The notes under the pieces are model-generated. The model worked only from the letters and a program-made list of their open reading frames with translations, made no database searches and was not told the origin of the DNA. From Chitinophagaceae bacterium (GTDB lineage Bacteria; Bacteroidota; Bacteroidia; Chitinophagales; Chitinophagaceae), in the NCBI GenBank assembly GCA_023957155.1, contig JAMLHK010000013.1, forward strand, positions 47,598-111,597: a stretch of DNA of 64,000 nucleotides. The letters are read 5' to 3'. How positions within the stretch are numbered: the stretch's first letter is position 1; every line of letters begins with the position of its first letter. Shown here piece after piece: positions 35,261 through 61,559 of this stretch. The position numbers and the translations under genes are program-made.

Positions 35261-35270
35261 CGCTGTATTG

Positions 35271-45874: not shown

Positions 45875-47095
45875 ATGAAATTAACCGGTAGCAGTAATAA
45901 AGTGCTGTGCCTTTGTTTAGCACTCTTTACGCTTTTTAACTCCTGTTCTAAAATGAACGACTTACACGATAAATATTTGAAACGCGGAGAGACCATTTAT
46001 GTTGCAAAGCCTGATTCGGTCTTTGCCTTTGCGGGTAAAGAGCGTGTCAAAATTCGTTATTGGGAGTCGGATCCTAAATCAGTTAAATTAGTAGTTTACT
46101 GGCTATCACGCACAGATTCTATGGTATTTGATATCCCTGTCCATGCTCCTAAAGATTCAATAGAAATTATTATTCCAAATCTATCAGAATATAACTATTT
46201 ATTTGAATTAGTAACAATGAACTCGAAGATGGAGAACAGATCATTGTCGTTAAATGTAAATGCCAGTTCATACGGTGATCAATTTAGGTCACATTTACTG
46301 GACAGAGCAATGGAATCGTATCGTTGGCTTGACCGTAATAAATTAGAAATAAAGTGGAGAGGAGCTATTGAAAAGGGAGTAGGGTGTGAGCTTCTGTATG
46401 ATAATATAGATGGTAACCGCGCCACGAGATTTGTGCCAATGGCTGAGAATCTCACACAGATTGAAGATTTTGAAGGAGAGCTTGAAATGAGAACTGTATT
46501 TTTACCTGAAAAGACGGCCATTGACACTTTTAATACGCCATTCAAGTCAATAAATATAGAACCTTTATCGGAGTTGGAGTTGGATAAAACATTGTTCAAA
46601 CAATGGAACCCACCTCAAATTCCGTATACATATTATGATTGGACTAGTACAATTGACAAGTTATGGGACAATACACCCGCAACTCAATACCTGACATTCA
46701 CGCCGTCCGGATTTCCATACAGTTTTACTTTTGATCTGGGGCAAACCGTTAAGCTAAAAAGATTTAAACACTGGCAGAGGATTGACAGGGGTGTGGTATA
46801 TCGAATACAGAATGTTAAAAAGTTTCAACTATGGGGCTCTGCCACATCTGATGTAACAGATGATTTTTCTGAATGGATAAAGTTGGGTGATTTTGAAGTG
46901 TATAAACCTTCCGGATTACCTTGGGGGCAGGAAACTGATGAAGATATAGCATACGCTACTCAGGGAGATAATTTTACTATTGATCCTAACGCACCTCCTG
47001 TACGCTATATAAGATATGTTGTTGAAGATTCCTGGGATGGAGCACAAAATCTTTTTACGGTTGGGGAATTGACATTTTTTCAAGAAGTGCACTAA
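45875..47095 (+). CDS. DUF4998 plus DUF5000-like surface lipoprotein
   Basis: 406 residues with lipobox cysteine near C24 (LALFTLFNSCSKM). A DUF4998-type N-terminal region (FAFAGKERVKIRYWESDPKSVKLVVYW) precedes a C-terminal discoidin-like domain clearly paralogous to that of the preceding protein (PYSFTFDLGQTVKLKRFKHWQR; RYIRYVVEDSWDG). Likely a second surface glycan-binding protein for the SusCD system. Confidence 0.82.
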   Translation: MKLTGSSNKVLCLCLALFTLFNSCSKMNDLHDKYLKRGETIYVAKPDSVFAFAGKERVKIRYWESDPKSVKLVVYWLSRTDSMVFDIPVHAPKDSIEIIIPNLSEYNYLFELVTMNSKMENRSLSLNVNASSYGDQFRSHLLDRAMESYRWLDRNKLEIKWRGAIEKGVGCELLYDNIDGNRATRFVPMAENLTQIEDFEGELEMRTVFLPEKTAIDTFNTPFKSINIEPLSELELDKTLFKQWNPPQIPYTYYDWTSTIDKLWDNTPATQYLTFTPSGFPYSFTFDLGQTVKLKRFKHWQRIDRGVVYRIQNVKKFQLWGSATSDVTDDFSEWIKLGDFEVYKPSGLPWGQETDEDIAYATQGDNFTIDPNAPPVRYIRYVVEDSWDGAQNLFTVGELTFFQEVH

Positions 47096-47111: not shown

Positions 47112-48431
47112 ATGATAAACCCTGTAACCATGCAAAAGACGAGTGACTGTAGAAAGGGATTATTATCTTTCCACTATTTTATCTATTCCCTGGCATGCTG
47201 TTTTATTGGCATTACAGATTTGCTGGCACAAGCGGATGCTGGTAAAATCCCTTTACTAAAAATAGTAAGTCGTGAAGTATCTTCTAACCGACCAGGGTTC
47301 TATGGTAGTATTTATCTGGGAAGAGAAGGTGTCAGATTACGATCTAATGATTTTATTTCCGAAGATAACGGCAAGACATGGGATAATAACCCCATGAAAC
47401 CGGACTTAACTTCAGGGCTGCCTTATGGGTACCGTTGGGATCCGGTTACTTCAGTTCTGGATACTAACAATGAAAAGATTGTAACTATTGTGAATGCTTT
47501 AGACGTTAAAGACCTGGACCCGACAATCAATGAACCTCCAATTGCACAAGAAACATATTATCTTCGATATAGAGTATCGGAAGATCAGGGAAAAACCTGG
47601 TCATACGATGAACCCATTGTGCAATGCGGCAATTTTACAATACAACACCCGCTTCCGGATATCTTCATTGGAAAAAATTCGATCTATATAGGTGATATAG
47701 GCTCTATTCCTATTGTTACTCAAAAGAGGAAAATTTTAGTACCGGCACAAGCTACTCTCGTAAACCATGATAGTAGTGGATTGTGGAATCCGGGAGGAGG
47801 AGAATCTTACACGGATGCGGTTATTCTTGAAGGTACTTGGCGGGATGATGGTAAAATTGACTGGAAAATGTTAGGGCGTATAGAAGCTGACCCTAAACGC
47901 TCCACCAGAGGTATGATTGAACCTACGCTTTTGGAAATAAGAGATGGGCTATTATTAGTAGTGATGCGTGGTAGCAATGAAAAAAGAGGAAGTAATAATT
48001 ATCAGTTACCCAGCTATAAATGGTTTTCTATTTCAGAAAATGGTGGGAAAACCTGGTCTATTCCCGAAGCATTTACATTCCAGGATGGGAAGGCTTTTTA
48101 TTCCCCCTCGTCAATGTCAACTCTGTTTAAACATTCCAGCGGACGATGTTTTTGGGTTGGAAACATGACAGAAGAAAACAGCGATGGCAATCTTCCACGT
48201 TGGCCATTGGTAATTGCTGAACTTGATACTAATAATTTAAAATTGATTAAGTCCAGTCTTTTAGTTGTAGATACACGTCAAATGGAGGATCAATCACGTG
48301 GGCGACTGGACATATCTCATATCTCACTTATTGAAGACAGAAAAACAGGAGAAATTATATTAATATATCCACGCTATTATAATGCTTATAAATCAAGAGA
48401 ATGGGTGACAACAAGAATTGCAATCAAATAA
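47112..48431 (+). CDS. Secreted sialidase-fold (BNR/Asp-box) protein 3
   Basis: 439 residues, with a signal sequence ending about LLAQA (residue 42). Three Asp boxes: SEDNGKTW, SEDQGKTW and SENGGKTW, plus MIEPTLLEIRDGLLLVVMRG, a conserved sialidase-superfamily segment where the catalytic Glu/Arg pair often lies. More divergent than the pair at 35-37.5 kb. Exact activity unknown; other sialidase-fold glycosidases or lyases are possible. A second ATG at 47130 is an alternative start. Confidence 0.75.
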   Translation: MINPVTMQKTSDCRKGLLSFHYFIYSLACCFIGITDLLAQADAGKIPLLKIVSREVSSNRPGFYGSIYLGREGVRLRSNDFISEDNGKTWDNNPMKPDLTSGLPYGYRWDPVTSVLDTNNEKIVTIVNALDVKDLDPTINEPPIAQETYYLRYRVSEDQGKTWSYDEPIVQCGNFTIQHPLPDIFIGKNSIYIGDIGSIPIVTQKRKILVPAQATLVNHDSSGLWNPGGGESYTDAVILEGTWRDDGKIDWKMLGRIEADPKRSTRGMIEPTLLEIRDGLLLVVMRGSNEKRGSNNYQLPSYKWFSISENGGKTWSIPEAFTFQDGKAFYSPSSMSTLFKHSSGRCFWVGNMTEENSDGNLPRWPLVIAELDTNNLKLIKSSLLVVDTRQMEDQSRGRLDISHISLIEDRKTGEIILIYPRYYNAYKSREWVTTRIAIK

Positions 48432-48477: not shown

Positions 48478-49719
48478 ATGAAAAAGTATCTCCTGTACAA
48501 GCCGAAATTATTGATCTCTATTTTGGTTATATTCCTTTTTATCGGTTCTGGTTTTTACCGAAAGCAAGCCAGGTATCTTAAATTCAAAGTACAATCTGAT
48601 GTGGCTTACCAGGAACTCAGTAAGAAATTTGTTTGGTCTCATCCCAGAGCTGCTGCCATACCGGGATTAGGAAAGAAAGGGAACCCTGCTGTTATCATGA
48701 CGCTTCAAAAACATCTTGTTGTGAGTGATTATTATTCAGGCTTGTATTACATGAGAACCGATGACCTTGGAAAAACATGGTCTCATCCTATTGAAATACC
48801 TGAACTGGCGTGGCAATATGAAGGAGACAGTACTACTGTTAGTGTTGCTGATGTTACACCAGGCTGGCATGAAAAGACAGGCAAGCTAATCGCGATTGGA
48901 ATAAAAGTGAGGTATAATAAAGCGGGAAAACAGGTATTCGACAAGCCCCGTTCGCATGATGCTGCCTACACAATTTTTGACCCGGTTACTAATTCATGGA
49001 CTCGATGGAAAATGATAAAAAATATACCAGAACTGAACTCTAAGTTTTACCTGGTTAATCCTGGATGTGTACAGTGGATTGTGAAACCTGATGGAAAGAT
49101 TCTCCTTCCTATTTACTTTAGCGGATCTGAATTAGGTGAATCTTCAGTTACAGTATTAGAATGCTTATTTGATGGCAGTACTTTGTCCTATCTGCGAAAT
49201 GGCGATGAAATGACCGTTGAAGGTGGGCGTGGCCTTGTTGAACCGTCAATAGTGCTGTTTAAAGGGACTTATTATCTCACTATGAGAAATGACTTTAAGG
49301 CTTATGTAGCTACAAGTAAAGATGGGCTACAATGGACTTCGCCGAAGCCGTGGACTTTTGACGATGGAAGTGATCTTGGAAGCTACAATACACAAGCTCA
49401 TTGGCTGGTACACAGTGATGGATTGTTCCTGTCATATACCAGGAGAGGAGCCAATAATGATCACATTCCTCGTAACCGGGCTCCCATATTCCTTGCCCAG
49501 GTTGATCCTTTGAAGTTAAATGTAATTCGATCAACTGAACAAATATTAATACCTGAGCGGGGTGCCATGCTTGGAAATTTTGGGGCTTCGGCAATTACGC
49601 AACATGAATCCTGGGTTACGGATGCAGAATTTATGATAGAAGACAAACCTCATCCTTTGGGAGCCAATGGTACTATTTGGAATGCCCGTGTTTTGTGGTC
49701 CAAGAAAAACAAATTGTAA
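48478..49719 (+). CDS. Secreted or membrane-anchored sialidase-fold protein 4
   Basis: 413 residues. N-terminal hydrophobic helix (LLISILVIFLFIGSGF, 11-26) as signal or anchor. Asp-box-like elements TDDLGKTW and TSKDGLQW, and the segment GLVEPSIVLFKGTYYLTMRND with the conserved Glu and Arg. Fourth sialidase-fold protein of the locus and a distant relative of the preceding one. Probably the last gene of the susC transcript, since a 200-base gap follows. Confidence 0.75.
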   Translation: MKKYLLYKPKLLISILVIFLFIGSGFYRKQARYLKFKVQSDVAYQELSKKFVWSHPRAAAIPGLGKKGNPAVIMTLQKHLVVSDYYSGLYYMRTDDLGKTWSHPIEIPELAWQYEGDSTTVSVADVTPGWHEKTGKLIAIGIKVRYNKAGKQVFDKPRSHDAAYTIFDPVTNSWTRWKMIKNIPELNSKFYLVNPGCVQWIVKPDGKILLPIYFSGSELGESSVTVLECLFDGSTLSYLRNGDEMTVEGGRGLVEPSIVLFKGTYYLTMRNDFKAYVATSKDGLQWTSPKPWTFDDGSDLGSYNTQAHWLVHSDGLFLSYTRRGANNDHIPRNRAPIFLAQVDPLKLNVIRSTEQILIPERGAMLGNFGASAITQHESWVTDAEFMIEDKPHPLGANGTIWNARVLWSKKNKL

Positions 49720-49921: not shown

Positions 49922-50857
49922 ATGAAGGAGAGCATTAACCATATTAAAAGCTTCCGCATTGAAGGGAAAACTCCCGGGCCACATGTATTGCTGGCAGCAG
50001 GGGTGCATGGAGATGAATATGAACCTGTGTTAACGGCAATAGAATTAATTAATGAATTGCCTCAGCTATTGATCTCAGGGAGTGTGACAATTGTTCCGAT
50101 AGTAAACGTTACCGCTTATCGCATGAGCAGCCGTTATGGAGAAGATGGACTGGACCTTGCCCGGATATGCCCGGGGAAACCGGATGGCTCCGCGTCAGAA
50201 AAAAATGCTTTCGAAATAAGCACACTGATCAAAGCATCGGATTACCTGGTAGATATGCATACGGGCGGGCTCGCACATCATATTTATCCTATGGCCGGAT
50301 TTATGCTGCATCCTTCCGGGGAAGTGCTGGAAAAACAAAGAGCGTTGGCGCTGGCCTGTAACCTGCCTGTAATTTGGGGAACGGATCATCGCCCGAACGG
50401 CAGAACGCTTTCGGTAGCGCGTGATGAGTATATCCCCGCTATTTATCTTGAATATGGAGGTGGTTCGGGAATTAGAAAAGAAGTAGTTAAAACGTATAAA
50501 GACAGTTGTATAAACGTATTGAAATATTTGAAGATGGCAGAAGGTGAGGCGGAAATCATTGCCCCGGAAAAAAGATTTTGGGTTGAGGATTCCATGCCTG
50601 ACAGCGGCTATTTCCAGGGTAAAATGCCGGCTCCTTCCGATGGAATATTTGTATGTGAAAAAACACCCGGCGAACCAATTAAAAGGGAAGAGCTATTTGG
50701 GAAAATAATAGATCCTTTTACAGGCAGCTCCACGGCTATACTTGCAGACATAGAGGGAATAGTGTTGTCGGTAAGAGTGGCTGTTCATGTAAAAAAAGGA
50801 GATGCCTTAGGATCAATATTGCCCATCGTTGAGCCGGGGAAAGTCATTATAAATTAG
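49922..50857 (+). CDS. M14-family deacylase (succinylglutamate desuccinylase/aspartoacylase type)
   Basis: 311 residues. Zinc ligands H29-x-x-E32 (AGVHGDEYEP) and H113 (VDMHTGG), with the catalytic-Glu region YLEYGGGSG. A C-terminal beta-barrel (DGIFVCEKTPGEPIKREELFGKIIDPFTG) is typical of the AstE/AspA/DoeB group, which removes acyl groups from N-acylated amino acids. The substrate is unknown; in this locus an N-acyl amino-sugar acid is a reasonable guess. First gene of the intracellular enzyme series. Confidence 0.83.
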   Translation: MKESINHIKSFRIEGKTPGPHVLLAAGVHGDEYEPVLTAIELINELPQLLISGSVTIVPIVNVTAYRMSSRYGEDGLDLARICPGKPDGSASEKNAFEISTLIKASDYLVDMHTGGLAHHIYPMAGFMLHPSGEVLEKQRALALACNLPVIWGTDHRPNGRTLSVARDEYIPAIYLEYGGGSGIRKEVVKTYKDSCINVLKYLKMAEGEAEIIAPEKRFWVEDSMPDSGYFQGKMPAPSDGIFVCEKTPGEPIKREELFGKIIDPFTGSSTAILADIEGIVLSVRVAVHVKKGDALGSILPIVEPGKVIIN

Positions 50858-50863
50858 AGATAA

Positions 50864-51679
50864 ATGGAAAATAAAAAAGTAGTCATTATCACAGGTGCCG
50901 CAGGAGGAATTGGATTGGCTACGGCTAAAAAATTTGCAGAAAATAATTTTTGCATAGCCCTGTCGGATATTGACCAGGATGGGCTGATCCGGGCTGTGGA
51001 AATCCTGGAAAAGAAATACGAGGCGGATTGCTTCATCTGTCATGGAAATTTAGAAGATATCCATTATATAGAAAACATAGTTAAGCAAACCATTGCAAAA
51101 TGGGGTCGCATAGATGTTCTGATCAATAATGCGGCATGGCGTACCATAGAAACGATGCGTACCATTTCCATAGAAAACTGGGAAAAAACACTTCGGGTCA
51201 ATTTAACTGCCCCGGCATTCCTGGCAAAATATGCTGCTGCAGCAATGGAAGAAAAAAGAGTAGCGGGTGCCATCATCAATATTTCCAGTGTGATGTCACA
51301 AAATGCTGCCGGCTATAGCCCCGCCTATATTTCCTGCAAAGGCGGGATCGAAAGTCTTACGTATGAGCTGGCGGCTTTATATGGCCCAAAAGGTATAAGG
51401 GTTGTAGCTGTTAACCCGGGTAGTATTGTAACCAACCTGAGTAACGATTATAAAGATGGATCAGGTAACAATATCAGTGAACAGCTAAAGGATCACATGA
51501 GTGATAGCACACCTCTTCAGAGAGCAGGCAATCCGGGGGAAATAGCTAATGTTTGCTATTGGCTTTCATCTGATGAAGCCTCATTTATAACGGGTACTTC
51601 CATACTCGTGGATGGAGGTTTCCTGCACAACTTTAACGCGTATAAAATGAAAAAGCTTCAATTCCCAAATGAATTTTAG
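50864..51679 (+). CDS. Short-chain dehydrogenase/reductase
   Basis: 271 residues. TGAAGGIG cofactor motif (10-17), Asp in LSDID after beta-2 indicating preference for NAD(H), NNA motif (88-90), catalytic S141/S142-Y155-K159 (YISCK). The C-terminal TGTSILVDGG segment is normal. Family members include glucose-1-dehydrogenase-like sugar oxidases. With the downstream lactonase gene it fits oxidation of a sugar to a lactone. Six bases after the deacylase gene. Confidence 0.88.
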   Translation: MENKKVVIITGAAGGIGLATAKKFAENNFCIALSDIDQDGLIRAVEILEKKYEADCFICHGNLEDIHYIENIVKQTIAKWGRIDVLINNAAWRTIETMRTISIENWEKTLRVNLTAPAFLAKYAAAAMEEKRVAGAIINISSVMSQNAAGYSPAYISCKGGIESLTYELAALYGPKGIRVVAVNPGSIVTNLSNDYKDGSGNNISEQLKDHMSDSTPLQRAGNPGEIANVCYWLSSDEASFITGTSILVDGGFLHNFNAYKMKKLQFPNEF

Positions 51680-52793
51680 AATGAGAGGAATATGGAAATA
51701 CAGCCATCTGCTGCCTTACATGGACGAGAACGCTAAATTAACTTTAGGCGAAGGAAATACACCATTGGTAAAGTCCAGACAATTGGGAAGGCAATTAGGT
51801 ATGGATCATTTATATTTCAAACTCGAAATTGTTAATCCTTCGGGTTCTTATAAAGACCGGTTTGCTGCTTTCGCCATATCTGACCTGGTGCAGAAAAATA
51901 TCAACTTCTGTATCGCTACCTCAAGTGGTAATACCGGCGCGGCCTTATCTGCGTATTGTGCGGTGGCAGGAATAAAATGTTATATCGCTATCGTAGATGG
52001 AGCGCCTGCAGGAAAGATGCAACAGATGCAGGTATATGGCGCTCAAACCTTAATGATAAAGGGTTTTGGGATAGACCCTGACGTTACCAATGAAGTCATG
52101 AAGGGACTACATATAATCGCTGAAAATTTAGGTGGTCCTGTTCAGATAAGCGCTTATCAATACAGTTCTTTGGCCATGACCGGCGTTCAGACCATTGCTT
52201 ATGAAATTGCTGAAGAAATTCCGTCATTCAGCGGGCATATATTTTCACCTGCAGGCGGAGGCGGCCTAACGTTAGCCATGGTAAAAGGATTCAACAAATG
52301 GAAAGAAGTAGATCCTGGCTTTAAAATACCTAAAGTACACTGTGTACAACCGGAAGGGAACGATACGATATCCGGCCCGCTTAGGAACGGATTAACTAAA
52401 GCACAGCCGGTTTCTAAAAGCCAAACTTCTATAAGTGGATTGCAGGTTCCCAATGTAATGGATGGTAATGAAGTGTTAGGCGCATGCAGAGAAACGGGTG
52501 GGGTTGGTTATACAGTAACTGACAGTATGGTATATGAATGCCAGGAAAACTTAGCCAAAATGGAAGGGATCTATTGTGAACCTGCAGGAGCCGTTGCACT
52601 TGCAGGAGCTTTAAAAGCTGCAGAAAACGGGGAAATAAATAAAAATGATCATGTGGTTTGTTTAGTTACCGGCCATGGTTTTAAAGACCCCGCCTCAGCA
52701 GGAAGGATCGCGAAAAAATCCGGAGACTACTATTTCAATAGTGCAAATGAAACTTTTGAATACATAAAATCTCAAATAAAAAATAACAATTAA
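51669..52793 (+). CDS. Threonine synthase-like PLP enzyme (fold type II)
   Basis: 374 residues. The PLP lysine is K62 in PSGSYKDRFA; the phosphate-binding loops are ATSSGNTGAALSA and FSPAGGGGLTLA. The overall pattern (LTLGEGNTPLVKS at the N-terminus) is threonine-synthase/threonine-dehydratase like. A biosynthetic threonine synthase would be out of place here, so a beta-elimination or ammonia-lyase role on a hydroxy-amino acid is more likely. The start at 51669 overlaps the SDR end; the ATG at 51681, directly after the SDR stop, is an equally good start. Confidence 0.82.
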   Translation: MNFRMRGIWKYSHLLPYMDENAKLTLGEGNTPLVKSRQLGRQLGMDHLYFKLEIVNPSGSYKDRFAAFAISDLVQKNINFCIATSSGNTGAALSAYCAVAGIKCYIAIVDGAPAGKMQQMQVYGAQTLMIKGFGIDPDVTNEVMKGLHIIAENLGGPVQISAYQYSSLAMTGVQTIAYEIAEEIPSFSGHIFSPAGGGGLTLAMVKGFNKWKEVDPGFKIPKVHCVQPEGNDTISGPLRNGLTKAQPVSKSQTSISGLQVPNVMDGNEVLGACRETGGVGYTVTDSMVYECQENLAKMEGIYCEPAGAVALAGALKAAENGEINKNDHVVCLVTGHGFKDPASAGRIAKKSGDYYFNSANETFEYIKSQIKNNN

Positions 52794-52807
52794 AATAGAA
52801 TTTTCAA

Positions 52808-53716
52808 ATGAAAGAAAAATTTAAAGGCTTGTGGCCTGCAATGTTTACTCCCGTTCTTGATAACGGGGAGCCGGCTTATGAAGAAATGGAGAAATTGGTT
52901 GAATTATTGATTTCCCAGCAGATGGATGGTTTGTATATCCTGGGATCTACCGGGCAGGGCTTACTCTTCACAGAGGAGCAACGAAAAAAAGCAACCGAAG
53001 TAGTGAGTAAAATATCAGCCGGAAGAATCCCTGTTATTGTTCATGTGGGCTCGCTTACTACAGCAGAATCCATCCGGTTAGCACAGCATGCTGAAAAATG
53101 CGGTGTTGATGGAATTTCTTCCGTACCGCCTATTTATTATACAGGAAATGCAGACACAGCATTGGCGCATTACAACAAGATTGCAGAATCTACTAATCTG
53201 CCCTTTTTCCCCTACCAGTTGGGAGATAATTCCATTCCCGGTAATGTACATGCTTTCATAGAAAAGCTGCTCGAAATTCCCAATGTGACCGGGATGAAGT
53301 TAACTACGAATCAATTATTGAATATCAGTAGTATTCATAACCAGGCAGGTGACAAACTGAAATTATTCAGCGGTTCTGATGAATTATTTTGTCACGCTAC
53401 GCTTTGTGGAACAGTAGGAGCTATCGGTACGTTTTATAACGTTTGGGGAGAGGCCTGTAAGCATGTAATGGCAGAGTTTGTAAATGGAAATTATACACTT
53501 GGCAAGGAGTTTATGCTTGCCTTTCAGGAAATCATTGAGTTGGTTTTACCCAACGCCTGGACGTTTCTCAGAAAAGCGATGTTATTAAAATACCGTATTG
53601 ATATCGGTCAAACGAAAGAACCATTAGGAAATGTTCAAAAAGAATGGCCGGATGACCAGGTAAGACGAATACTGGAAAGGATAGACTCCATTCCCCAATC
53701 TATTATCAGCCATTAA
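52808..53716 (+). CDS. N-acetylneuraminate lyase-like aldolase (DapA/NanA superfamily)
   Basis: 302 residues, TIM barrel. Schiff-base lysine K164 (GMKLTTNQL), Y136 (FFPYQL), carboxylate-binding GSTGQG (S47, T48). D191-E192 in GSDE and T208 in AIGTFYN fall at the positions that bind the polyol tail in E. coli NanA (D191, E192, S208). This points to a nonulosonate or 2-keto-3-deoxy-acid lyase rather than dihydrodipicolinate synthase. Product pyruvate plus an aldehyde is expected. Located 14 bases after the PLP-enzyme gene. Confidence 0.82.
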   Translation: MKEKFKGLWPAMFTPVLDNGEPAYEEMEKLVELLISQQMDGLYILGSTGQGLLFTEEQRKKATEVVSKISAGRIPVIVHVGSLTTAESIRLAQHAEKCGVDGISSVPPIYYTGNADTALAHYNKIAESTNLPFFPYQLGDNSIPGNVHAFIEKLLEIPNVTGMKLTTNQLLNISSIHNQAGDKLKLFSGSDELFCHATLCGTVGAIGTFYNVWGEACKHVMAEFVNGNYTLGKEFMLAFQEIIELVLPNAWTFLRKAMLLKYRIDIGQTKEPLGNVQKEWPDDQVRRILERIDSIPQSIISH

Positions 53717-53726
53717 TATTTTCAAG

Positions 53727-54110
53727 ATGACAACTGAGAAAAAGAAAATAATTACAGGTGCTAATGTACCGCAAAGCCACTTGCCGTTTTCGCCTGCCAT
53801 TCAATCAGGAAATTATGTTTTTATTTCGGGGCAGGCATCCACAGATAAGGAGGGAAAAATTGTTTCAGGAACTTTTGAAGAAGAATGCAGGAGGTCATTT
53901 GAAAATCTGAAAGCCATATTGGAGGCCTCGGGTCTTGGCTTTAAAGATGTTATCCAGGTGCGGAATTATGTCGGTAAGCAGGAATACCTCGCATCATTCA
54001 ATACTATTTATAAAGAATTTTTTAATGAACCTTACCCGGCGCGGACAACACTTATAGGTTGCTTAGGCAACCTGCTGAAATTTGAAGTAGATGCAATTGC
54101 TGCCTGCTAA
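53727..54110 (+). CDS. RidA-family enamine/imine deaminase
   Basis: 127 residues. R106 (PARTTLIG) and E120 (LLKFEVDAIA) match the catalytic Arg105/Glu120 pair of RidA. The family hydrolyses reactive enamine/imine intermediates made by PLP-dependent dehydratases. Its placement 10 bases after the aldolase gene and two genes after a fold-type II PLP enzyme supports exactly that role here. Confidence 0.9.
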   Translation: MTTEKKKIITGANVPQSHLPFSPAIQSGNYVFISGQASTDKEGKIVSGTFEEECRRSFENLKAILEASGLGFKDVIQVRNYVGKQEYLASFNTIYKEFFNEPYPARTTLIGCLGNLLKFEVDAIAAC

Positions 54111-54173
54111 TACATTATTTATGCTATTTAGAATACCATTATCGTGAATTTATCATGAGCCGGGTATTCCCAT

Positions 54174-55016
54174 TTGAAGCGAGATAATATAGATGTAAAT
54201 CATCCAGTGATGGGAATCAAAAAAATAAGTGATCTGCCCTTCTATACAGAAGGTCCTGCAATGGATAGCAAAGGGAATATTTACTGCACCACACTTTCAG
54301 GTGGAACTATATTAAAAATTGATGCTGAAAATAAAATAACCGAATGGGCTTACTCAGATTGTCCTAACGGGCAAATTGTTTTACCTGGTGATGACCATTT
54401 GATTTGCGATGTTAAACTCGCTGCTGTAAGAAGATTTGATAGTAAGGGCTGCTTTGTAAAGAGTGAAATAGAAAAATATTGTGCGGGCATCGAAGTTTAT
54501 TGCCCCAACGATTTGATAACTGATAGTAATGAGAATATTTATTTTACAGATTCTGTAAGACACCAAGGGAAAATCTGTTTTGTAGGAACAAATGGTGAGC
54601 AAAGTATCCTGGCTAAAGATTTAGATTATCCTAATGGACTTGCCCTGTCTTTTGATCAAAAAACACTGTATGTAGCGGAAAGCTATAAGAACAGGATTTT
54701 AAAAATTGATTTGGAAAGTCCCGGCAGGACAAAAGATGATATTGAAATTTTTGCTGAATTACCGGCGCATTCATCAGGTATGGAAACGGATAATTTACCC
54801 GATGGATTGACCCTGGACCATGAGGGAAATCTATGGGTAGCACATTATGGTATGCAGGCTATACATAAGTTATCACCTGAAGGAAGTTTATTGGCTTCGA
54901 TTGATACGAATATGCGGCTTACCAGCAATTTATTTTTTTATGATCAGGGAACGATAGTAGTTACAGGCGGATACAGTGAGCCGGGGCCCGGAGGCTTATT
55001 CAGGGTCTTTTTGTGA
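54174..55016 (+). CDS. SMP-30/gluconolactonase/LRE-family lactonase
   Basis: 280 residues from a TTG at 54174; an ATG at 54210 would give 268 residues and is a credible alternative. Six-bladed propeller with the metal ligands E in FYTEGP, N/D in YCPNDLITDSNENIYFTDS and D in PDGLTLDHEGNLWVAH. The enzyme opens sugar lactones to aldonates. With the SDR gene upstream it forms an oxidise-then-hydrolyse pair. Cytosolic, as no signal peptide is visible. Confidence 0.85.
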   Translation: MKRDNIDVNHPVMGIKKISDLPFYTEGPAMDSKGNIYCTTLSGGTILKIDAENKITEWAYSDCPNGQIVLPGDDHLICDVKLAAVRRFDSKGCFVKSEIEKYCAGIEVYCPNDLITDSNENIYFTDSVRHQGKICFVGTNGEQSILAKDLDYPNGLALSFDQKTLYVAESYKNRILKIDLESPGRTKDDIEIFAELPAHSSGMETDNLPDGLTLDHEGNLWVAHYGMQAIHKLSPEGSLLASIDTNMRLTSNLFFYDQGTIVVTGGYSEPGPGGLFRVFL

Positions 55017-55117
55017 GTAATGAATCGTGAGTAGCGAGTTGTCAGTTGTGAGTGAGTGTTACGTTACTGATAACTCACAATTAACCCGGTAATGGTATTA
55101 AAGCATAAAAAAATTAT
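55017..55117. repeat. GTGAGT-type intergenic repeat with inverted segment
   Basis: Iterated GTGAGTAAT/GTGAGTAGC/GTGAGTGAG units. AGTTGTGAGT and ACTCACAATT (near 55078) can pair with one mismatch. Resembles low-complexity dispersed repeats of Bacteroidota. May end transcripts or be debris, as it separates the lactonase from a broken gene. Confidence 0.35.
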
Positions 55118-55303
55118 ATGGAGTATTCAAAGTTACATGGGTACGATATATCAAAGCTTACCTTAGGAACAGTAGTGCTTGGAATGGATTATGGTATTTC
55201 TAACGAAGGCAATAAACGGGACAGGACTAATGGCTTTAGCATCATATCATCAGCATTGAAGGCTGGTATTAATACGTTGGATACTGCTTCAAAACAAAAA
55301 TAA
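55118..55303 (+). pseudogene. Truncated aldo-keto reductase (N-terminal fragment)
   Basis: 61 residues matching the AKR N-terminus (YSKLHGYDISKLTLGTVVLGMDYGISNEGN, then INTLDTA), including the catalytic Asp, and then ending abruptly in SKQK-stop. Full-length AKRs continue with the catalytic Tyr about five residues later. An intact AKR of the same superfamily lies at 56587-57498. The break falls 6 bases before the MFS start, as if transporter insertion or deletion cut the gene. Confidence 0.7.
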
Positions 55304-55309
55304 TTTTTT

Positions 55310-56557
55310 ATGGAATTGGCTGCTATCGCTTCCGGATCAAAGTTACCCAAACGAGCATGGTTAGTGGTGGTGCTACTGGCTATTGTGGGATGTTTGAATT
55401 ACCTGGATCGCATCATGATCACTACCATGCGGGTATCCATAGTTGAGGCTATTCCCATGTCTGATGCCCAATTTGGTCTGCTTACTTCCGTGTTTTTATG
55501 GGTATATGGTATCGCCAGTCCTTTTGCCGGGTTTCTTGCAGACCGGTTTAATCGTAGCGTGGTAATTATTGCAAGCCTGTTCCTGTGGTCATTGGTTACC
55601 TGGTTGACCGCTTATTCAACCACCTTCAACCACCTGCTGATAACACGTGCATTAATGGGGATAAGCGAAGCCTGTTATATTCCTGCGGCGCTTTCGTTAA
55701 TCGTGGAGTATCACCGGAATGCTACCCGTTCATTAGCCGTAGGCATTCACATGGTTGGAATTATGATAGGGTCAGGCCTGGGCTTCGTTGGAGGCTGGGT
55801 GGCAGAGAATCATCATTGGAATACGATTTTTATTATTCTCGGAGTCTTTGGGATCATTTATGCAGTTATGCTTTCCTTTATGTTGAAAGATGCGCCAAAG
55901 AACGAAGTTATTATTGCTCCGGAAAAAACCGGGGATAAAGTCAATTTCTTTCATTCTGTCAAAGTGCTGTTTAAGCTGAGGTCATATATTTTTGTACTTA
56001 TTGCATGGGGCTTACTCGGAACCGTAGCATGGCTGGTAGTAGGCTGGCTTCCTACCTATTTCCAGGAACATTTTAACCTTACCCAGGCAATGGCGGGCTT
56101 ATATGCCACGGGGTATTTATATCCTGCTGCTATTGTTGGATTATTATTAGGAGGATATTGGGCAGACCGGTGGAGCCGCTCGAATCCCCGTGCAAGGATT
56201 CTTGTACCGGCTATTGGTTTATGTATTGCTGCGCCAAGTATTTTTATTGCAAGCTACACCAGCATTCTTCCTGTTGCTGTACTATGTTTTATGCTCTACT
56301 CACTTACCAAGTCTTTTATTGATACGAATATGATGCCTATCCTTTGCCTTATAACTTATTCGCGCTATCGGGCAACGGGGTATGGCATATTAAATTTAGT
56401 GGCCACTGTTATTGGTGGAATAGGGCTTTATGCCGGCGGTGTTTTGCGTGACTTACATATTAATCTGAGCGCTGTTTATCAAATTGCCGCTTTAACAATG
56501 ATCATCAGTATTGTTTTCCTGATTGCCGTTAAGCCTAAATATATTGAACCGGAGTAG
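55310..56557 (+). CDS. MFS transporter (ACS/anion-cation symporter-like)
   Basis: 415 residues with 12 predicted TM helices. N-terminal NYLDR motif after TM1 (CLNYLDRIMITT), and the loop 2-3 signature GFLADRFNRSVVI. This motif set is common in the ACS group that takes up sugar acids, sialic acid-type and other organic anions. It would carry the SusCD-derived product across the inner membrane. Immediately downstream of the broken AKR. Confidence 0.87.
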   Translation: MELAAIASGSKLPKRAWLVVVLLAIVGCLNYLDRIMITTMRVSIVEAIPMSDAQFGLLTSVFLWVYGIASPFAGFLADRFNRSVVIIASLFLWSLVTWLTAYSTTFNHLLITRALMGISEACYIPAALSLIVEYHRNATRSLAVGIHMVGIMIGSGLGFVGGWVAENHHWNTIFIILGVFGIIYAVMLSFMLKDAPKNEVIIAPEKTGDKVNFFHSVKVLFKLRSYIFVLIAWGLLGTVAWLVVGWLPTYFQEHFNLTQAMAGLYATGYLYPAAIVGLLLGGYWADRWSRSNPRARILVPAIGLCIAAPSIFIASYTSILPVAVLCFMLYSLTKSFIDTNMMPILCLITYSRYRATGYGILNLVATVIGGIGLYAGGVLRDLHINLSAVYQIAALTMIISIVFLIAVKPKYIEPE

Positions 56558-56586
56558 GAATGCACTTGAGTTTTTTATAATCAGCA

Positions 56587-57498
56587 TTGAAAATGGAAAG
56601 AACACTTACCTCGCTTACTAATAAATCCTTTAGTGCTATCGGCCTGGGATGCGTTACTTTTGGAAGGGAGATAGACCGGCAGGCTTCTTTTTCATTAATG
56701 GATTATGCGGTGGAAAACGGGGTCTCTTTTTTTGATACCGCTGCTGCCTATGGTGATGGGGCATCTGAAAAGATCATTGGATCCTGGATAGCCGACCGCT
56801 GTTCGGTATCCGGCTCCCTGCTTATAGCAACCAAGATTCTTCCTCCTTATACCCCAAAAAAAATTATAGAATCCGTAGATCAAAGCCTGGAGCGTTTGGG
56901 AACAGAGGCTATAGATTTGCTTTATTTACATCGTTGGGATACTACTATTGAGGATATTGATGCATTATATACACTTAATGATCTTATAAAAGTTGGAAAA
57001 ATAAAAATACCCGGGGTAAGTAATTTTAATGCCGGGCAATTGGGAAGAGCCATTCAGCTACAGAAAGACAACGGGTTTGATGTATTCCGAACCATTCAAA
57101 ACAATAACAACTTTGCAGTAAGGGACATTAATAAAGAGATCATAAAAATATCTGTTGATCACGATATTAAAATCGTAACGTATAGCCCGCTTGGAGCAGG
57201 ATTTCTTACCGGTAAATATAAAAACGGGGTAGAAGACAATACCCGCTTTTCACTGATCAGGGGGCACCAGGATATTTATTTTAATGAATCTTCATTTCAA
57301 CGGCTTACTCAGCTTCAAAAGATCTCAGCCCTTACAGGTTATTCAACATCGCACCTGGCACTTGTATGGGCATTGCACCAACCCTATACCACTTCTGTTC
57401 TTGTTGGCGGGCGCTCTACGGAGCAATTGAAGCAGGCCTTTGCGGCGCTGTCTTTTTATGATCGTGATATTTTTAATGAACTTGAATTAACTAAATAA
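56587..57498 (+). CDS. Aldo-keto reductase
   Basis: 303 residues, (beta/alpha)8 barrel. Catalytic tetrad visible: D and Y in FFDTAAAYGDG, K in LLIATKI, H in LLYLHRW. NADPH-binding C-terminal pattern VLVGGRSTEQL. Reduces an aldehyde or ketone, possibly the aldehyde released by the upstream aldolase, or the reverse. An N-terminal fragment of a second AKR precedes the transporter. Confidence 0.88.
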   Translation: MKMERTLTSLTNKSFSAIGLGCVTFGREIDRQASFSLMDYAVENGVSFFDTAAAYGDGASEKIIGSWIADRCSVSGSLLIATKILPPYTPKKIIESVDQSLERLGTEAIDLLYLHRWDTTIEDIDALYTLNDLIKVGKIKIPGVSNFNAGQLGRAIQLQKDNGFDVFRTIQNNNNFAVRDINKEIIKISVDHDIKIVTYSPLGAGFLTGKYKNGVEDNTRFSLIRGHQDIYFNESSFQRLTQLQKISALTGYSTSHLALVWALHQPYTTSVLVGGRSTEQLKQAFAALSFYDRDIFNELELTK

Positions 57499-57514
57499 AT
57501 TTTTAAAAGAAAAT

Positions 57515-58807
57515 ATGAATTATTCACAATCTGCAGCATTATTGGAAAGAGCAAAGAAAGTATTAGCGGGAGGAGTATCTTCAGAATTCAGGAAATACAA
57601 TCATCCGCATGCCCTTTTCTACACTCACGGAAAAGGAAGCCGTATCTACGATGTGGATGGCAATGAATACCTGGATTTTACCTTAAGTCAGGGTCCGCTT
57701 ATTTTAGGACACTCACACCCGGATATCATCAGGTCAGTTGCTGAATATGCTTCCACCGGGCAGCTTTTTGCCGGGCAGCATATCAAAGAAGTGGAACTGG
57801 CAGAAACGATCAGCCGTATGGTTCCATCTGCTGAAGTAATGCGGTTTTGCCTGGACGGCTCGACTGCCGTACAAACGGCTTTTCGCATAGCCAGGGCAAA
57901 GACAGGGAAAGATAAATTTTTACGATTCGAGGGACATTACCATGGGTGGTTAGACAATGTATGCTGGGGAAATGCTGCGGCATCTGCTGAAGCAATGGGT
58001 AGCAGAACGCAGCCGGTAGTAAGCCCCTGGTCAAAAGGCATGTACAAGCTCTCAAAAGATGAATCTGTGGTATTGCCCTGGAACGATCTGCCATTGGTGG
58101 AAAAAACACTTGCGGAAAGGCATGCAGAAATTGCAGCTATTATTACCGAACCGGTGATGTGCAATAATGGATGTATCCCTCCGGAACCCGGTTTTCTCGA
58201 AGGACTCCGGAAACTTTGCGATACCTATGGCATCGCGCTTATTTTTGATGAAGTTATAACAGGTTTCAGGTTGTCACTGGGCGGAGCACAGCAATATTTC
58301 AATATAAAACCGGATATTTCCGTTTTTGCCAAAGCTATGGCAAGCGGTTACCCAATAAGTGTGGTAACCGGTAGCAGGAAGTGGCTGGATGTACTGGAGA
58401 ACGGCTCGGTGATACACGCCGGCACGATGAATACGGGAAATGCTACCGTAGCGGCTGCTTTAGCAACGTTGACCACGCTTGAAAAGGAAGCTCCCTATGA
58501 GCGCATGTTTGATTACGGAACACGCTTAATGGAAGGACTCAGGAAAGCGGCCAGGGATTCGGGGCATGAAGTGCTTGTTCAGGGCCCCGGTCCTATGTTC
58601 AATATATCTTTCACATCATTGAGGAAAATTACAGATTACAGAGAATTTTTAACTACAGACAGGCAAAAGCTGAATGCCTTTACCAGTAAAATGCACGATC
58701 ACGGGATCCGCATCATTGGAAGAGGATTGTGTATCAGCGTTGTACACATGAAAGAAGAAATTGATCATGCCATCCAGGTAGCAGGGCAGGTCTTTAGGGA
58801 AATGTAA
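57515..58807 (+). CDS. Class III (GSA-type) PLP aminotransferase
   Basis: 430 residues. PLP lysine K273 (FAKAMASGYP), cofactor-ring aspartate in IFDEVITGFR, and GST/HYHGW segments as in glutamate-1-semialdehyde aminomutases and omega-aminotransferases. The gabaculine-sensitive GSA enzyme would sit with heme genes, which are absent, so a catabolic amine/aldehyde role is more likely. Sixteen bases after the AKR gene. Confidence 0.87.
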   Translation: MNYSQSAALLERAKKVLAGGVSSEFRKYNHPHALFYTHGKGSRIYDVDGNEYLDFTLSQGPLILGHSHPDIIRSVAEYASTGQLFAGQHIKEVELAETISRMVPSAEVMRFCLDGSTAVQTAFRIARAKTGKDKFLRFEGHYHGWLDNVCWGNAAASAEAMGSRTQPVVSPWSKGMYKLSKDESVVLPWNDLPLVEKTLAERHAEIAAIITEPVMCNNGCIPPEPGFLEGLRKLCDTYGIALIFDEVITGFRLSLGGAQQYFNIKPDISVFAKAMASGYPISVVTGSRKWLDVLENGSVIHAGTMNTGNATVAAALATLTTLEKEAPYERMFDYGTRLMEGLRKAARDSGHEVLVQGPGPMFNISFTSLRKITDYREFLTTDRQKLNAFTSKMHDHGIRIIGRGLCISVVHMKEEIDHAIQVAGQVFREM

Positions 58808-58850
58808 TTGTAGCTAAAAATATTCAATGGCATATAAAAAAATATAGCGT

Positions 58851-60302
58851 ATGCTTCGGGTTGCTCTGTTAGGGATTTATCATGAGTCGAATACGTTCAT
58901 TGAAGGTTATACAACAATCAATGACTTTACCTATTCGCATTGGTTAACAGGAGAGGCGATCTGCCGGGAGTATTCGGCAGCACATCACGAGATCGGTGGG
59001 ATGATAGAGGTATTAGAAGAAAATAATATAGAGGTAGTACCGGTTATGTTTGCAGAAGCGGTTCCCGGCGCACCGCTTTCAGCGGAAACATACCATGTAT
59101 TATTAGAGAAAATGATCAGTGAATTAAATAACAGGCTGCCTGTAGACGGTTGCCTGGTAGCGGTTCACGGTGCCGGGGTTGCTGAAGATGAGCCTGATAT
59201 GGATGGTCATTGGCTTTCTCTGCTGAGAAAAAAGCTGGGACCGGAGATACCCATTATCGGAACATTGGATCCCCATGCGAATTGCAGCGATAAAATGACA
59301 GCGGCAACAGATGCGCTTGTTGCTTACCATACGAACCCACATATAGATCAACGTCAAACCGGCAGAGAAGCGGCCACGCTGATGGTGAAAAAACTCCTTA
59401 AAAAGGTTACTCCCATCCAGGTAAAAACAGATTTGCCGATTGCCATCAGCATAGAACAGCAGTTTACAAGCGAAGAACCCTGCCTGGGGCTTTACCGGTA
59501 TGCAGACCAGTTATCTAAACAACCGGGCATTTTATTTGTAAGCATCTTACTGGGCTTTCCTTATGCAGACGTGGAAGAGATGGGAAGCTCAATCATCGTG
59601 GTTGCAGATAACAACCGGGCCCTGGCAGAAAGTACCGGAATGTTGATAAAGGATTTTGTGCTGGGTATCCACACAAGGTTTAATGGTGAAAAAATTAAAA
59701 TTGATACACTGCTTACGCAACTGCAGGCATTATCAAAGCCGGTATTACTATTGGATATGGGAGATAATGTAGGTGGTGGGGCCCCGGGCAACAGCAGCTT
59801 TTTGTTAGATATCCTTGAAGCAGCTCAGGCGGGCCGTTTCGTTATTTGTATCCACGACCCCGTTTCTGTTAAGCAGCTTTCGAAAAAGCATGTTGGGGAC
59901 AGGTTGCCCGCCCGGATGGGAGACAGTACTGTAGAAAGAACGGTATTGATCCGGAAGCTGGGTGATGGCAAATTCCGGGAAAGAGAACCCCGGCATGGCG
60001 GGCAGGTGAACTTTGATATGGGACCCATTGCCATTGTTCAAACTGAAAACGGGAATACGGTTTTGCTGACTTCCCTGAGAGTACCGCCCTTTAGCCTGCA
60101 GCAACTGGTAGACTTTAACATCATTCCTTCAGATTATGACCTGATCGTTGCAAAAGGGGTAAATGCTCCCATTGCCGCGTATGCCGGCGTATGTAATACC
60201 ATCGTAAAACTGGATACCCCGGGTGTTACACAAGCCGACATGACGCGCTTCACTTACAGGAACAGGCGTATACCCCTGTTTCCTTTTGAGCAGATCATGT
60301 AA
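58851..60302 (+). CDS. M81-family (MlrC-like) metallohydrolase
   Basis: 483 residues, with the N-terminal DUF1485 domain beginning VALLGIYHESNTF and the MlrC C-terminal domain (DMGDNVGGGAPGNSSFLLDIL). Likely zinc ligands D140, H142 (TLDPHAN) and H160 (YHTNPHID). The founding member cleaves linearised microcystin peptides, but most M81 proteins act on unknown amide or peptide bonds. Last gene of the plus-strand catabolic series and convergent with a regulator. Confidence 0.87.
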   Translation: MLRVALLGIYHESNTFIEGYTTINDFTYSHWLTGEAICREYSAAHHEIGGMIEVLEENNIEVVPVMFAEAVPGAPLSAETYHVLLEKMISELNNRLPVDGCLVAVHGAGVAEDEPDMDGHWLSLLRKKLGPEIPIIGTLDPHANCSDKMTAATDALVAYHTNPHIDQRQTGREAATLMVKKLLKKVTPIQVKTDLPIAISIEQQFTSEEPCLGLYRYADQLSKQPGILFVSILLGFPYADVEEMGSSIIVVADNNRALAESTGMLIKDFVLGIHTRFNGEKIKIDTLLTQLQALSKPVLLLDMGDNVGGGAPGNSSFLLDILEAAQAGRFVICIHDPVSVKQLSKKHVGDRLPARMGDSTVERTVLIRKLGDGKFREREPRHGGQVNFDMGPIAIVQTENGNTVLLTSLRVPPFSLQQLVDFNIIPSDYDLIVAKGVNAPIAAYAGVCNTIVKLDTPGVTQADMTRFTYRNRRIPLFPFEQIM

Positions 60303-60470: not shown

Positions 60471-61559
60471 CTATAGATTGAATATGGTGGATTTCCGTTC
60501 GATTATTTTTCCATTAAGGTTTACCATCATTGGGATGTGATGATTGTTTTTTATACGCCTTAACGCTAATTCAATACTGATATTTGCCATTTCTTCACAG
60601 GGTTGAAGGTAACTGGTCAGCGGATATTTAAGGTATTGAGCATATTTCATATTATCATAGCCACAGATTAAGCAGTCTGAAGTGACCTTTACATTAATCT
60701 TTTCCAGTGAAGAGAGCAAAACGGCAGCGGTGGAATCGTTTGCACATATAATACCGGTTTTGCCGGTCACCATCTTCATTGTTTTTATAAAGTCAATATC
60801 AGCAGGATCTCCGCAGTGGATGTTTTCATCAGTAAATGGCAGGTGATTTTTTAATACAGCATCCCGGATGCCGGATAACCGGAGGTCTACAGAATTAGCT
60901 GAATTTGTCCGATAGAAAAAATGTATGGTTTCACAACCCTTTTTTATGAGATGTTGTGCCATTGTGGCTCCTGCAAAAAAATTATCTAACCAAATGATAT
61001 CATATCCTCCTGCTTCCGGTTGAATCGTTAAGCCGCGATCAATTAAGATAAGGGGGATATTCGCACTGATGATTTTATTGAATATGCTAAGGTTGATTTC
61101 ATTTGCGTCCGGCAGGCGCTCGAGCGGAGAAAACAGAATAGCATCAACTTTTTGTGATATATACTCGTTACAATAATGTTCCGTCTGCGATCTCCTGATT
61201 TCTGCATTGCTTGCCGTAGCGCCTCCCCACAAAAAATTCAACCCGTTTTTTTGTGACAGGTTTAATAGCTGATCATTGATGGTTGTAAATATCTCCGACT
61301 CTCCGGAGCCTGGCAATAACAGGCCGATGTTGTAGGTTAATCGCGCATTATTATGAATGACCTGGGATCCGTATCCTCTGGTTTTTTTAATATACCCGTT
61401 GCTCTGTAACCGGTTATATACTTTGGCAATGGTGGGACGTGATACGGAATATTGTTTTGCAAGCGTATTTTCCGAAGGTAACAATGTTCCATTTTTGTAG
61501 ACCCCCCTGACAATATCTTCCTTTAAGGACTCAAAAATACTGAACTGTTGTTTGCGCAA
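60471..61559 (-). CDS. GntR-HTH / LacI-type sensor hybrid regulator (AraR-like)
   Basis: 362 residues from a TTG at 61559, the only start available before an upstream stop. N-terminal GntR winged helix (LKEDIVRGVYKNGTLLPSENTLAKQYSVSRPTIAKVYNRLQSNGYI) fused to a periplasmic-binding-protein-like sensor domain (TYNIGLLLPGSGESEIFTTI... ICANDSTAAVLLSSLEK...). Such hybrids are repressors that respond to sugars. Divergent from the GH32-like gene, which it probably controls. Confidence 0.87.
   Translation of the reverse strand: MRKQQFSIFESLKEDIVRGVYKNGTLLPSENTLAKQYSVSRPTIAKVYNRLQSNGYIKKTRGYGSQVIHNNARLTYNIGLLLPGSGESEIFTTINDQLLNLSQKNGLNFLWGGATASNAEIRRSQTEHYCNEYISQKVDAILFSPLERLPDANEINLSIFNKIISANIPLILIDRGLTIQPEAGGYDIIWLDNFFAGATMAQHLIKKGCETIHFFYRTNSANSVDLRLSGIRDAVLKNHLPFTDENIHCGDPADIDFIKTMKMVTGKTGIICANDSTAAVLLSSLEKINVKVTSDCLICGYDNMKYAQYLKYPLTSYLQPCEEMANISIELALRRIKNNHHIPMMVNLNGKIIERKSTIFNL

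Follow-up and report, generated by a model that had tools for sequence, protein, structure and literature searches.

How does a bacterium use the sugar that its sialidase-fold proteins would free, if the genes beside them encode oxidising, deacylating and deaminating enzymes and no kinase? The question is raised by ten genes, all on the + strand, at positions 49922-60302 of a 64,000-nucleotide stretch (the window) from a Chitinophagaceae bacterium (assembly GCA_023957155.1, contig JAMLHK010000013.1), where they lie downstream of SusCD and four sialidase-fold proteins. The reading somewhat favoured here is that they form part of a nonulosonate (sialic-acid-like) utilisation locus with an oxidative, non-phosphorylative end, which would act on N-acetylneuraminate (Neu5Ac) or a relative.

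A conserved cluster with sialidase-type and lyase components

An initial annotation, made from the sequence, had described one continuous series of an M14 deacylase, a NAD-type short-chain dehydrogenase/reductase (SDR), a fold-type II pyridoxal phosphate (PLP) enzyme, a NanA-like lyase, RidA, an SMP-30 lactonase, an aldo/keto reductase (AKR) and a major facilitator superfamily (MFS) porter. All of these families are established at their places by Pfam, and the SusC/SusD pair and four sialidase-fold proteins that it had noted nearby lie upstream, the fourth being a weak match. The set is co-directional, with intergenic gaps of -11 to +63 bases save for 293 bases ahead of the MFS gene, but a class-III aminotransferase and an M81 hydrolase within the same interval had been overlooked. 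Wherever catalytic residues were checked among the ten proteins, the expected ones are present. No kinase, and specifically no 2-keto-3-deoxygluconate (KDG) kinase, was found by Pfam among the ten; ROK proteins elsewhere in the genome were not searched for.

As a unit, the cluster is conserved. When a genome collection of 84,980 species was scanned with the M14 alignment, 458 relatives emerged, and 80 of them were retained as related loci; by record title 55 belong to Bacteroidota and 24 to other phyla, one (L070) being unassigned. Because the M14, SDR and PLP genes stand together on one strand in 54 of the 80, their arrangement is not a matter of chance. Among the 47 Bacteroidota loci of at least 15 kb, the SDR and the PLP enzyme are each found in 45, the lyase and RidA in 44, M81 and the SMP-30/SGL protein in 42, and the first sialidase-fold protein, BNRa, in 39; a NanM-like Kelch protein occurs in 34, an MFS porter in 32, a GDSL esterase in 26 and a sodium:solute symporter (SSF) in 11.

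Co-occurrence was counted over the 63 of the 80 loci that reach at least 15 kb, with identity thresholds of our own setting and with related genomes that are not independent (L047 and L048 are one genome). Lyase and BNRa occur together in 38 of these, with six loci holding the lyase only, one BNRa only and 18 neither (p = 9e-10), an association that phylum confounds. MFS and SSF, both known classes of sialate porter, are nearly exclusive (one locus with both, 31 with MFS only, 13 with SSF only, 18 with neither). RraA and the class-III aminotransferase are never found together (26 loci with RraA only, 10 with the aminotransferase only, 27 with neither; p = 0.004), and in sequence terms they look like lineage-bound alternatives. 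The idea that RraA-type and aminotransferase-type clusters serve different sugars was set aside, since the split mostly follows the lyase tree, albeit with exceptions. Two lyase positions alone (102 and 157), neither of them catalytic, separate the two groups by a cut of our own choosing; for this comparison L054 and L069 were put in the aminotransferase group from longer stretches.

The NanM-like proteins that were scanned pass the Pfam cut-off, and one scanned against NCBIfam falls far below the NanM cut-offs. In one related genome (G256, L030:2512-5043) a single protein fuses a Kelch domain, whose NanM match is below the Pfam cut-off, to an SSF symporter; as far as its domains suggest, mutarotation and uptake may be coupled there.

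By its sequence, the lyase is placed in the N-acetylneuraminate-lyase (NAL) branch but is not a proven equivalent of NanA, because it misses the cut-offs of two NCBI NanA models (176.4 against 281 and 134.7 against 382). Among solved sequences, the first 26 matches to its profile all carry the label neuraminate lyase, many being variants of a single enzyme, and the 27th is a dihydrodipicolinate synthase. The D191/E192 pair, to which the initial annotation had drawn attention, is present. In an alignment of the window protein with 48 orthologues at no less than 45% identity, Y136, K164, T166, G189, D191 and E192 are kept in 49/49 sequences, S47 in 48 (one gap) and T48 in 47 (one Ser, one gap); these residues presumably supply the Schiff-base lysine, the tyrosine, the Ser-Thr carboxylate site and the Asp191-Glu192 pair known from the family. 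When further NALs were looked for in the same genome, three of four other proteins of the dihydrodipicolinate synthase family were without the D191-E192 pair and the fourth (L005) fell outside the alignment. Three loci have no lyase nearby. In two of them (L061 in G256, L065 in G123) an orthologue lies about 10-16 kb off, so its apparent lack there is an artefact of how long the stretches were, and the suggestion that these genomes dispense with the lyase was rejected. The third (L068, genome G294) gives weak lyase matches only.

BNRa orthologues are found in 45 of the 80 related loci. The model of BNRa (pLDDT 89.7) predicts a six-bladed sialidase propeller with an Arg triad, Asp, Glu and Tyr. 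Foldseek places a P. gingivalis sialidase first in the PDB (E 1.8e-18), and the TM-scores against the M. viridifaciens sialidase 1eus are 0.73/0.77. The residues R58, D86, E238, R254, R310 and Y341 are kept in at least 95% of 72 orthologue sequences, and we take them to be the GH33 set known from the M. viridifaciens enzyme (R68, D92, E260, R276, R342, Y370), whose spacing is similar. A residue-level mapping onto solved sialidases was abandoned: the PDB profile alignments, as printed, are largely confined to the C-terminal part and omit the N-terminal Arg and Asp, which are assigned by conservation, spacing and comparison with the GH33 set. BNRb has the full catalytic set, BNRc and BNRd part of it, and BNRd matches the Pfam sialidase fold with 28.9 bits against a cut-off of 31.4. 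At Foldseek ranks 2 and 3 for BNRa stands Dfer_1899, a Dyadobacter fermentans protein without an assigned function; the second-best match is PDB entry 5hx0, and the cluster itself is present in another strain of D. fermentans (L066). Niabella aurantiaca (L054) and Runella zeae (L058) are further species that carry it.

Among the other core enzymes, the M14 protein keeps H29, E32, H113 and E177 in 9/9 aligned sequences and the SDR keeps S142, Y155 and K159 in 9/9, one of them partial. The PLP enzyme belongs to the PALP family by Pfam, is of fold-type II and keeps K62, while RidA has R106 and E120 as first annotated; the roles of these residues in the four proteins are presumably those known from their families. 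M81 keeps E12, H106, D140, H142 and H164. A literature search for its role pointed to microcystin work and unrelated topics, and no role was drawn from it.

Proposed pathway and rival explanations

In the proposed pathway, of which the substrate, the order of steps and every activity are predicted, the sialidase-type proteins BNRa and BNRb would free the sugar, which SusCD and the MFS porter would import. Cleavage by the lyase would then yield pyruvate together with a manno-configured N-acyl amino sugar, N-acetylmannosamine (ManNAc) or a relative. The SDR would oxidise C1 of the amino sugar with NAD, the SMP-30 protein would open the resulting lactone and the M14 enzyme would take off the N-acyl group. 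Next, the PLP enzyme would eliminate the 3-hydroxyl and RidA would hydrolyse the imine, giving ammonia and a 2-keto-3-deoxyaldonate. Where the cluster includes an RraA- or HpcH-type aldolase, that enzyme would cleave this acid, which would otherwise pass to KDG or 2-keto-3-deoxy-6-phosphogluconate (KDPG) enzymes elsewhere in the genome; the genome in question has a KDPG-aldolase-family protein and, outside the cluster, an RraA-family protein. Pyruvate phosphate dikinase-like genes, one of them confirmed by Pfam, lie near the clusters of three relatives and would suit pyruvate as a product. M81 and the aminotransferase fall outside the proposed steps. The oxidative, kinase-free amino-sugar route of the initial annotation, tied to a nonulosonate-type lyase and sialidase-type enzymes, is supported, but that scheme leaves M81, the aminotransferase and the RraA of many relatives unaccounted for.

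The same annotation had put the lyase first and offered an order with the lyase last as an alternative. In the latter, an imported N-acetylhexosamine or aldonate would be oxidised, deacylated and deaminated, the NanA-like protein would cleave the 2-keto-3-deoxyaldonate and the sialidase-fold proteins would act elsewhere. An aldonate transporter model is indeed the closest to the MFS porter, the lyase could serve as end aldolase in the window, where RraA is missing, and outside Bacteroidota the M14-PLP core pairs with RraA or HpcH/HpaI aldolases and has no such lyase nearby. Yet the lyase belongs to the NAL branch with D191/E192 in all 49 sequences, it co-occurs with the sialidase-type BNRa, which argues for its acting first, and 23 loci have both it and RraA, which argues against its being simply an alternative end aldolase. 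Stereochemistry points the same way. The aldonate derived from ManNAc is (2S), with an L-type alpha carbon, and those derived from N-acetylglucosamine (GlcNAc) and N-acetylgalactosamine (GalNAc) are D-type; the substrates of AstE, AspA and DoeB are N-acyl-L-amino acids, and those of fold-II PLP lyases are L-amino acids. The published route for the (2R) N-acetylglucosaminate of oxidised chitin employs D-amino-acid families instead, namely a D-aminoacylase relative and a fold-III enzyme (PMC9537276). The M14 and fold-II families would therefore match the lyase product, an agreement that we infer rather than measure, and would fit GlcNAc- or GalNAc-derived aldonates poorly. The lyase-first order is the more likely of the two, and the reading with the lyase last is considered improbable.

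The loci outside Bacteroidota also bear on how the pathway is built. Among the 24, which come from Planctomycetota, Opitutales and other groups, the PLP enzyme is found in 11, HpcH/HpaI aldolase in nine, M81 in eight, the SDR in seven, RraA in five and RidA in three. A distant lyase-family member (24-31% identity) with the D191-E192 pair is encoded elsewhere in six of 12 non-Bacteroidota genomes searched. The aldolases beside the core come from three non-homologous families (DapA, RraA and HpcH), as expected for a pyruvate-aldolase end step. Since the non-Bacteroidota cores have other aldolases but not this lyase, BNRa or SGL nearby, the system looks like two modules, one for sugar release with the lyase and the other an oxidation-deacylation-deamination core that is paired elsewhere with other pyruvate aldolases. 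In three Opitutales loci (L102, L104, L108) an M24 (creatinase/prolidase-family) gene adjoins the M14-SDR-PLP-M81 core. The Opitutaceae locus among them has FAD-linked oxidase genes (PF02913, PF01565) after the core (L102:9482-12004) and may handle a glycolate or lactate product, for example from an N-glycolyl group.

The initial annotation had remarked that the usual sialate genes were not seen. A search of the entire genome (88% complete) gave no match to NanE (PF04131), and the cluster has no kinase, but four NagB-family matches lie elsewhere; NagA and ROK were not searched for. A search of 294 genomes gave a match in 15, of which the 10 at no less than 44% identity were followed and five at 31% or less were dropped (G214, G136, G006, G036, G260). 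NanE is above cut-off in 0/10 cluster-bearing genomes, with one sub-threshold match in G123. The view, implied by the initial annotation, of the cluster as a stand-in for an absent standard route is not supported, because five of the 10 (G123, G277, G030, G028, G237) hold a standard Bacteroidota sialate locus elsewhere. A lyase, an MFS porter, an N-acylglucosamine 2-epimerase (AGE) and a sialidase-like protein are present in all five such loci (in G123 the last of these was recognised by its similarity to the G028 and G237 proteins), and SusCD, a NanM-like protein and a SASA-like esterase in four each. This makes the oxidative cluster a parallel system, which may serve another nonulosonate.

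AGE (PF07221) is absent from the cluster, and the genome's single copy is on another contig in an unrelated locus; a standard operon was sought there (L120:5128-10623, C1), and the neighbours proved to be a metallophosphatase, a SIS protein and a NAD epimerase, with no lyase. In the surroundings fetched, the AGE-type epimerases of this genome, G256 and G211 have no adjoining lyase, further matches in G256 and G211 not having been fetched. None is above cut-off in G279. The epimerase loci of G242, whose cluster contig is only 4.4 kb, were left out, as were second epimerase matches in other genomes.

Several observations weigh against the favoured reading. The coexistence of a standard locus in half of the cluster-bearing genomes means that plain Neu5Ac may not be the substrate, and the window lyase is only 24-27% identical to the lyases of the five standard loci. 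Around the active site the two kinds differ at 139-140, 190, 193 and 248-253 (GRDEN against G-A/S-D-E-L, KYGGIA against PNxWTF), the catalytic set being kept. To the missed NanA cut-offs may be added a second lyase copy in G256 (L143, 47% identity), which has Glu in place of D191. The best solved relatives of the SDR are generic or glucose dehydrogenases, and M81 recurs across loci more constantly than the scheme would require. No NanM-like protein of the genome exceeds the cut-off, and its cluster has no end aldolase other than the lyase. Lastly, lyase, BNRa and SGL are found within the stretch in 0/24 non-Bacteroidota M14 loci, only 11 of which have the PLP enzyme.

Alternatively, the same enzymes may act in the same order on a substrate other than Neu5Ac, a nonulosonate that gives a lyase product closed to the standard route, for instance a 9-deoxy one such as legionaminate; M81 could then remove a second N-acyl group. 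This is the most serious of the alternatives, though unlikely as matters stand. In its favour are the standard locus that coexists with the cluster in five of the 10 genomes, the lyase differences next to an unchanged catalytic set, and the two amide-type hydrolases, M14 and M81, in a single cluster; moreover, oxidative routes without phosphorylation are common in the degradation of 6-deoxy sugars. However, no particular sugar is directly supported, the standard locus was not found in the genome of the window or in G279, so that Neu5Ac could be the substrate there, and it is from the alignment alone that the changed positions are taken to line the lyase pocket. In a more specific and somewhat more doubtful form, the cluster would be a third nonulosonate route beside the standard locus, for sugars that the kinase-epimerase-NagAB path cannot take (9-deoxy, multiply N-acylated, legionaminate type), with M14 and M81 as deacylases. 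The lyase product would be a 6-deoxy manno-configured amino sugar. Once it had been oxidised, M14 would take off its acyl group and M81 a second one, and deamination would leave a keto acid from which pyruvate is formed; such a sugar suits an oxidative route because it has no 6-hydroxyl to phosphorylate.

A hydroxyectoine-like or N-acyl amino acid pathway, with a DoeB-type deacetylase, an EutB-type dehydratase and the aminotransferase, and with the sugar genes present by chance, is very improbable. The families are shared: DoeB is the best NCBIfam model of the M14 protein and EutB is among the matches of the PLP enzyme, and a gene of the M24 superfamily, to which DoeA belongs, occurs in 3/24 non-Bacteroidota loci. 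But the scores lie far below the family cut-offs (80 bits against 402.7 and 70.4 against 413), for which reason ectoine degradation was rejected. Furthermore, the ten genes of the cluster include no M24 DoeA-type gene, the 55 Bacteroidota loci have none resembling the M24 gene of L104, and sialidase, NanM, lyase and NanR-like genes recur.

Gene content and neighbours of the locus

Table. Genes and other features of the locus in window coordinates; assignments are from sequence comparison unless a basis is given, and proposed roles are predictions.
Coordinates	Strand	Feature	Basis
35268..36410	+	BNRa, sialidase-fold, complete GH33-type set R58, D86, E238, R254, R310, Y341	fold model, conservation
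36474..37538	+	BNRb, second sialidase-fold protein, same catalytic set as BNRa	
37671..38585	+	protein with twin-arginine-like N-terminus (by eye), without Pfam or NCBIfam match	
38714..39400	-	GntR/FCD regulator, best NCBIfam model NanR	
39552..42683	+	SusC-type outer-membrane transporter	sequence and BLAST to similar open reading frames preceding SusD-type ones in related loci; no Pfam scan
42696..44600	+	SusD-type surface glycan-binding protein	
44659..45819	+	DUF4959/DUF5126/DUF5000 protein	
45875..47095	+	DUF4998/DUF5000 protein	
47112..48431	+	BNRc, sialidase-fold, catalytic set incomplete	
48478..49719	+	BNRd, divergent sialidase-fold, Pfam match below cut-off, catalytic set incomplete	
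49922..50857	+	M14 AstE/AspA/DoeB-type deacylase, proposed N-acyl-aminoaldonate deacylase	
50864..51679	+	NAD-type SDR, proposed N-acylhexosamine 1-dehydrogenase	
51669..52793	+	fold-type II PLP enzyme, threonine synthase-related (K62), proposed aminoaldonate ammonia-lyase	
52808..53716	+	N-acetylneuraminate-lyase-branch aldolase (S47, T48, Y136, K164, D191, E192)	
53727..54110	+	RidA (R106, E120), proposed imine hydrolase	
54174..55016	+	SMP-30/SGL lactonase	
55118..55288	+	remnant of second AKR gene, 57 residues	
55310..56557	+	MFS porter, best NCBIfam model D-galactonate transporter subfamily (below cut-off)	
56587..57498	+	aldo/keto reductase (AKR)	
57515..58807	+	class-III aminotransferase, nearest models GntE and HemL (below both cut-offs)	
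58851..60302	+	M81/MlrC-like metallohydrolase	
60471..61559	-	GntR-type regulator with LacI-like sugar-binding domain	

The AKR remnant lies in the 293-base gap and is 60% identical to a gene of a related cluster (L027:16590-17528). Because a gene of that kind is present in 25 of the 47 Bacteroidota loci of at least 15 kb, the lineage of the window seems, on this comparison, to have lost it. The GntR/FCD regulator reaches 85.6 bits against the NCBIfam NanR cut-off of 260. The twin-arginine-like protein recurs beside the cluster in three of the same 47 loci and in one planctomycete locus at 31% identity (L040, L050, L065, L086). Further upstream, a beta-propeller protein at 33025-34176 matches the C-terminal half of a NanM-YNCE fusion from a sister genome (L026:8019-10118), with 73% identity along 324 residues.

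Comparison with known systems

Two Neu5Ac pathways are named (PMC5583593), and two routes are given for ManNAc derived from sialic acid, both via phosphorylation and NagA/NagB (PMC10017367). The catabolism of GlcNAc, GalNAc, ManNAc and N-acetylmuramic acid (MurNAc) is said to start with phosphorylation (PMC9537276). With the NanL / NanE-II (AGE) / RokA system of the Bacteroides fragilis type (PMC10017367), the cluster has in common a sialate-type lyase, as judged by branch and residues. It further shares a GntR/FCD regulator, SusCD, an MFS porter and a sialidase-like protein with the standard loci of its relatives, but it is without AGE epimerase or kinase and has the oxidation, deacylation and deamination module instead. 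The nanA/nanK/nanE system of the E. coli type likewise has a lyase of the same branch; unlike it, the cluster has no kinase and its bearers no NanE above cut-off in the 10 genomes. For the oxidative step, an N-acylmannosamine 1-dehydrogenase (EC 1.1.1.233) of Flavobacterium sp. 141-8 reportedly has NAD-dependent SDR activity that turns ManNAc into the lactone; no paper on it was among the matches listed in the literature searches.

An archaeal oxidation of glucosamine with later phosphorylation has been predicted, without tests (PMC12343721). No published description of an oxidative sialate pathway was found among the matches listed; most subscription papers lay outside the search, so novelty is unproven. 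A global survey scores sialate use by nanE and reports that environmental sialidase genes exceed nanE (PMC10570557); a survey of this kind would miss the cluster. If the proposed pathway is right, it would be a new route in environmental Bacteroidota and could explain part of that excess, it would suggest functions for three enzyme families (M14, fold-II PLP and M81), and what becomes of bacterial nonulosonates could be tested in cultured strains. Should the legionaminate-type reading prove true, this would be, to our knowledge, the first known case of bacteria feeding on such sialic acids of other bacteria.

The initial annotation had pointed to an analogous chain for oxidised chitin monomers in marine bacteria, and this analogy is real: in Pseudoalteromonas the ong pathway degrades oxidised chitin (GlcNAc1A), with OngB, a relative of D-aminoacylase, and the fold-type III enzyme OngC acting on (2R) N-acetylglucosaminate (PMC9537276). 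Like the ong pathway, the cluster would deacetylate an N-acetylaminoaldonate and deaminate the product to KDG by a PLP enzyme, with no phosphorylation before deamination, and both have a RidA gene (essential in ong). They differ in the enzymes employed, D-aminoacylase-type OngB and fold-type III OngC in ong as against M14 and fold-type II in the cluster. A KDG kinase belongs to the ong cluster only, whereas the sialate-type lyase, SDR and lactonase belong to the present cluster and are not named for ong. Finally, the ong substrate is already oxidised on arrival, while in the scheme proposed here oxidation would follow cleavage by the lyase.

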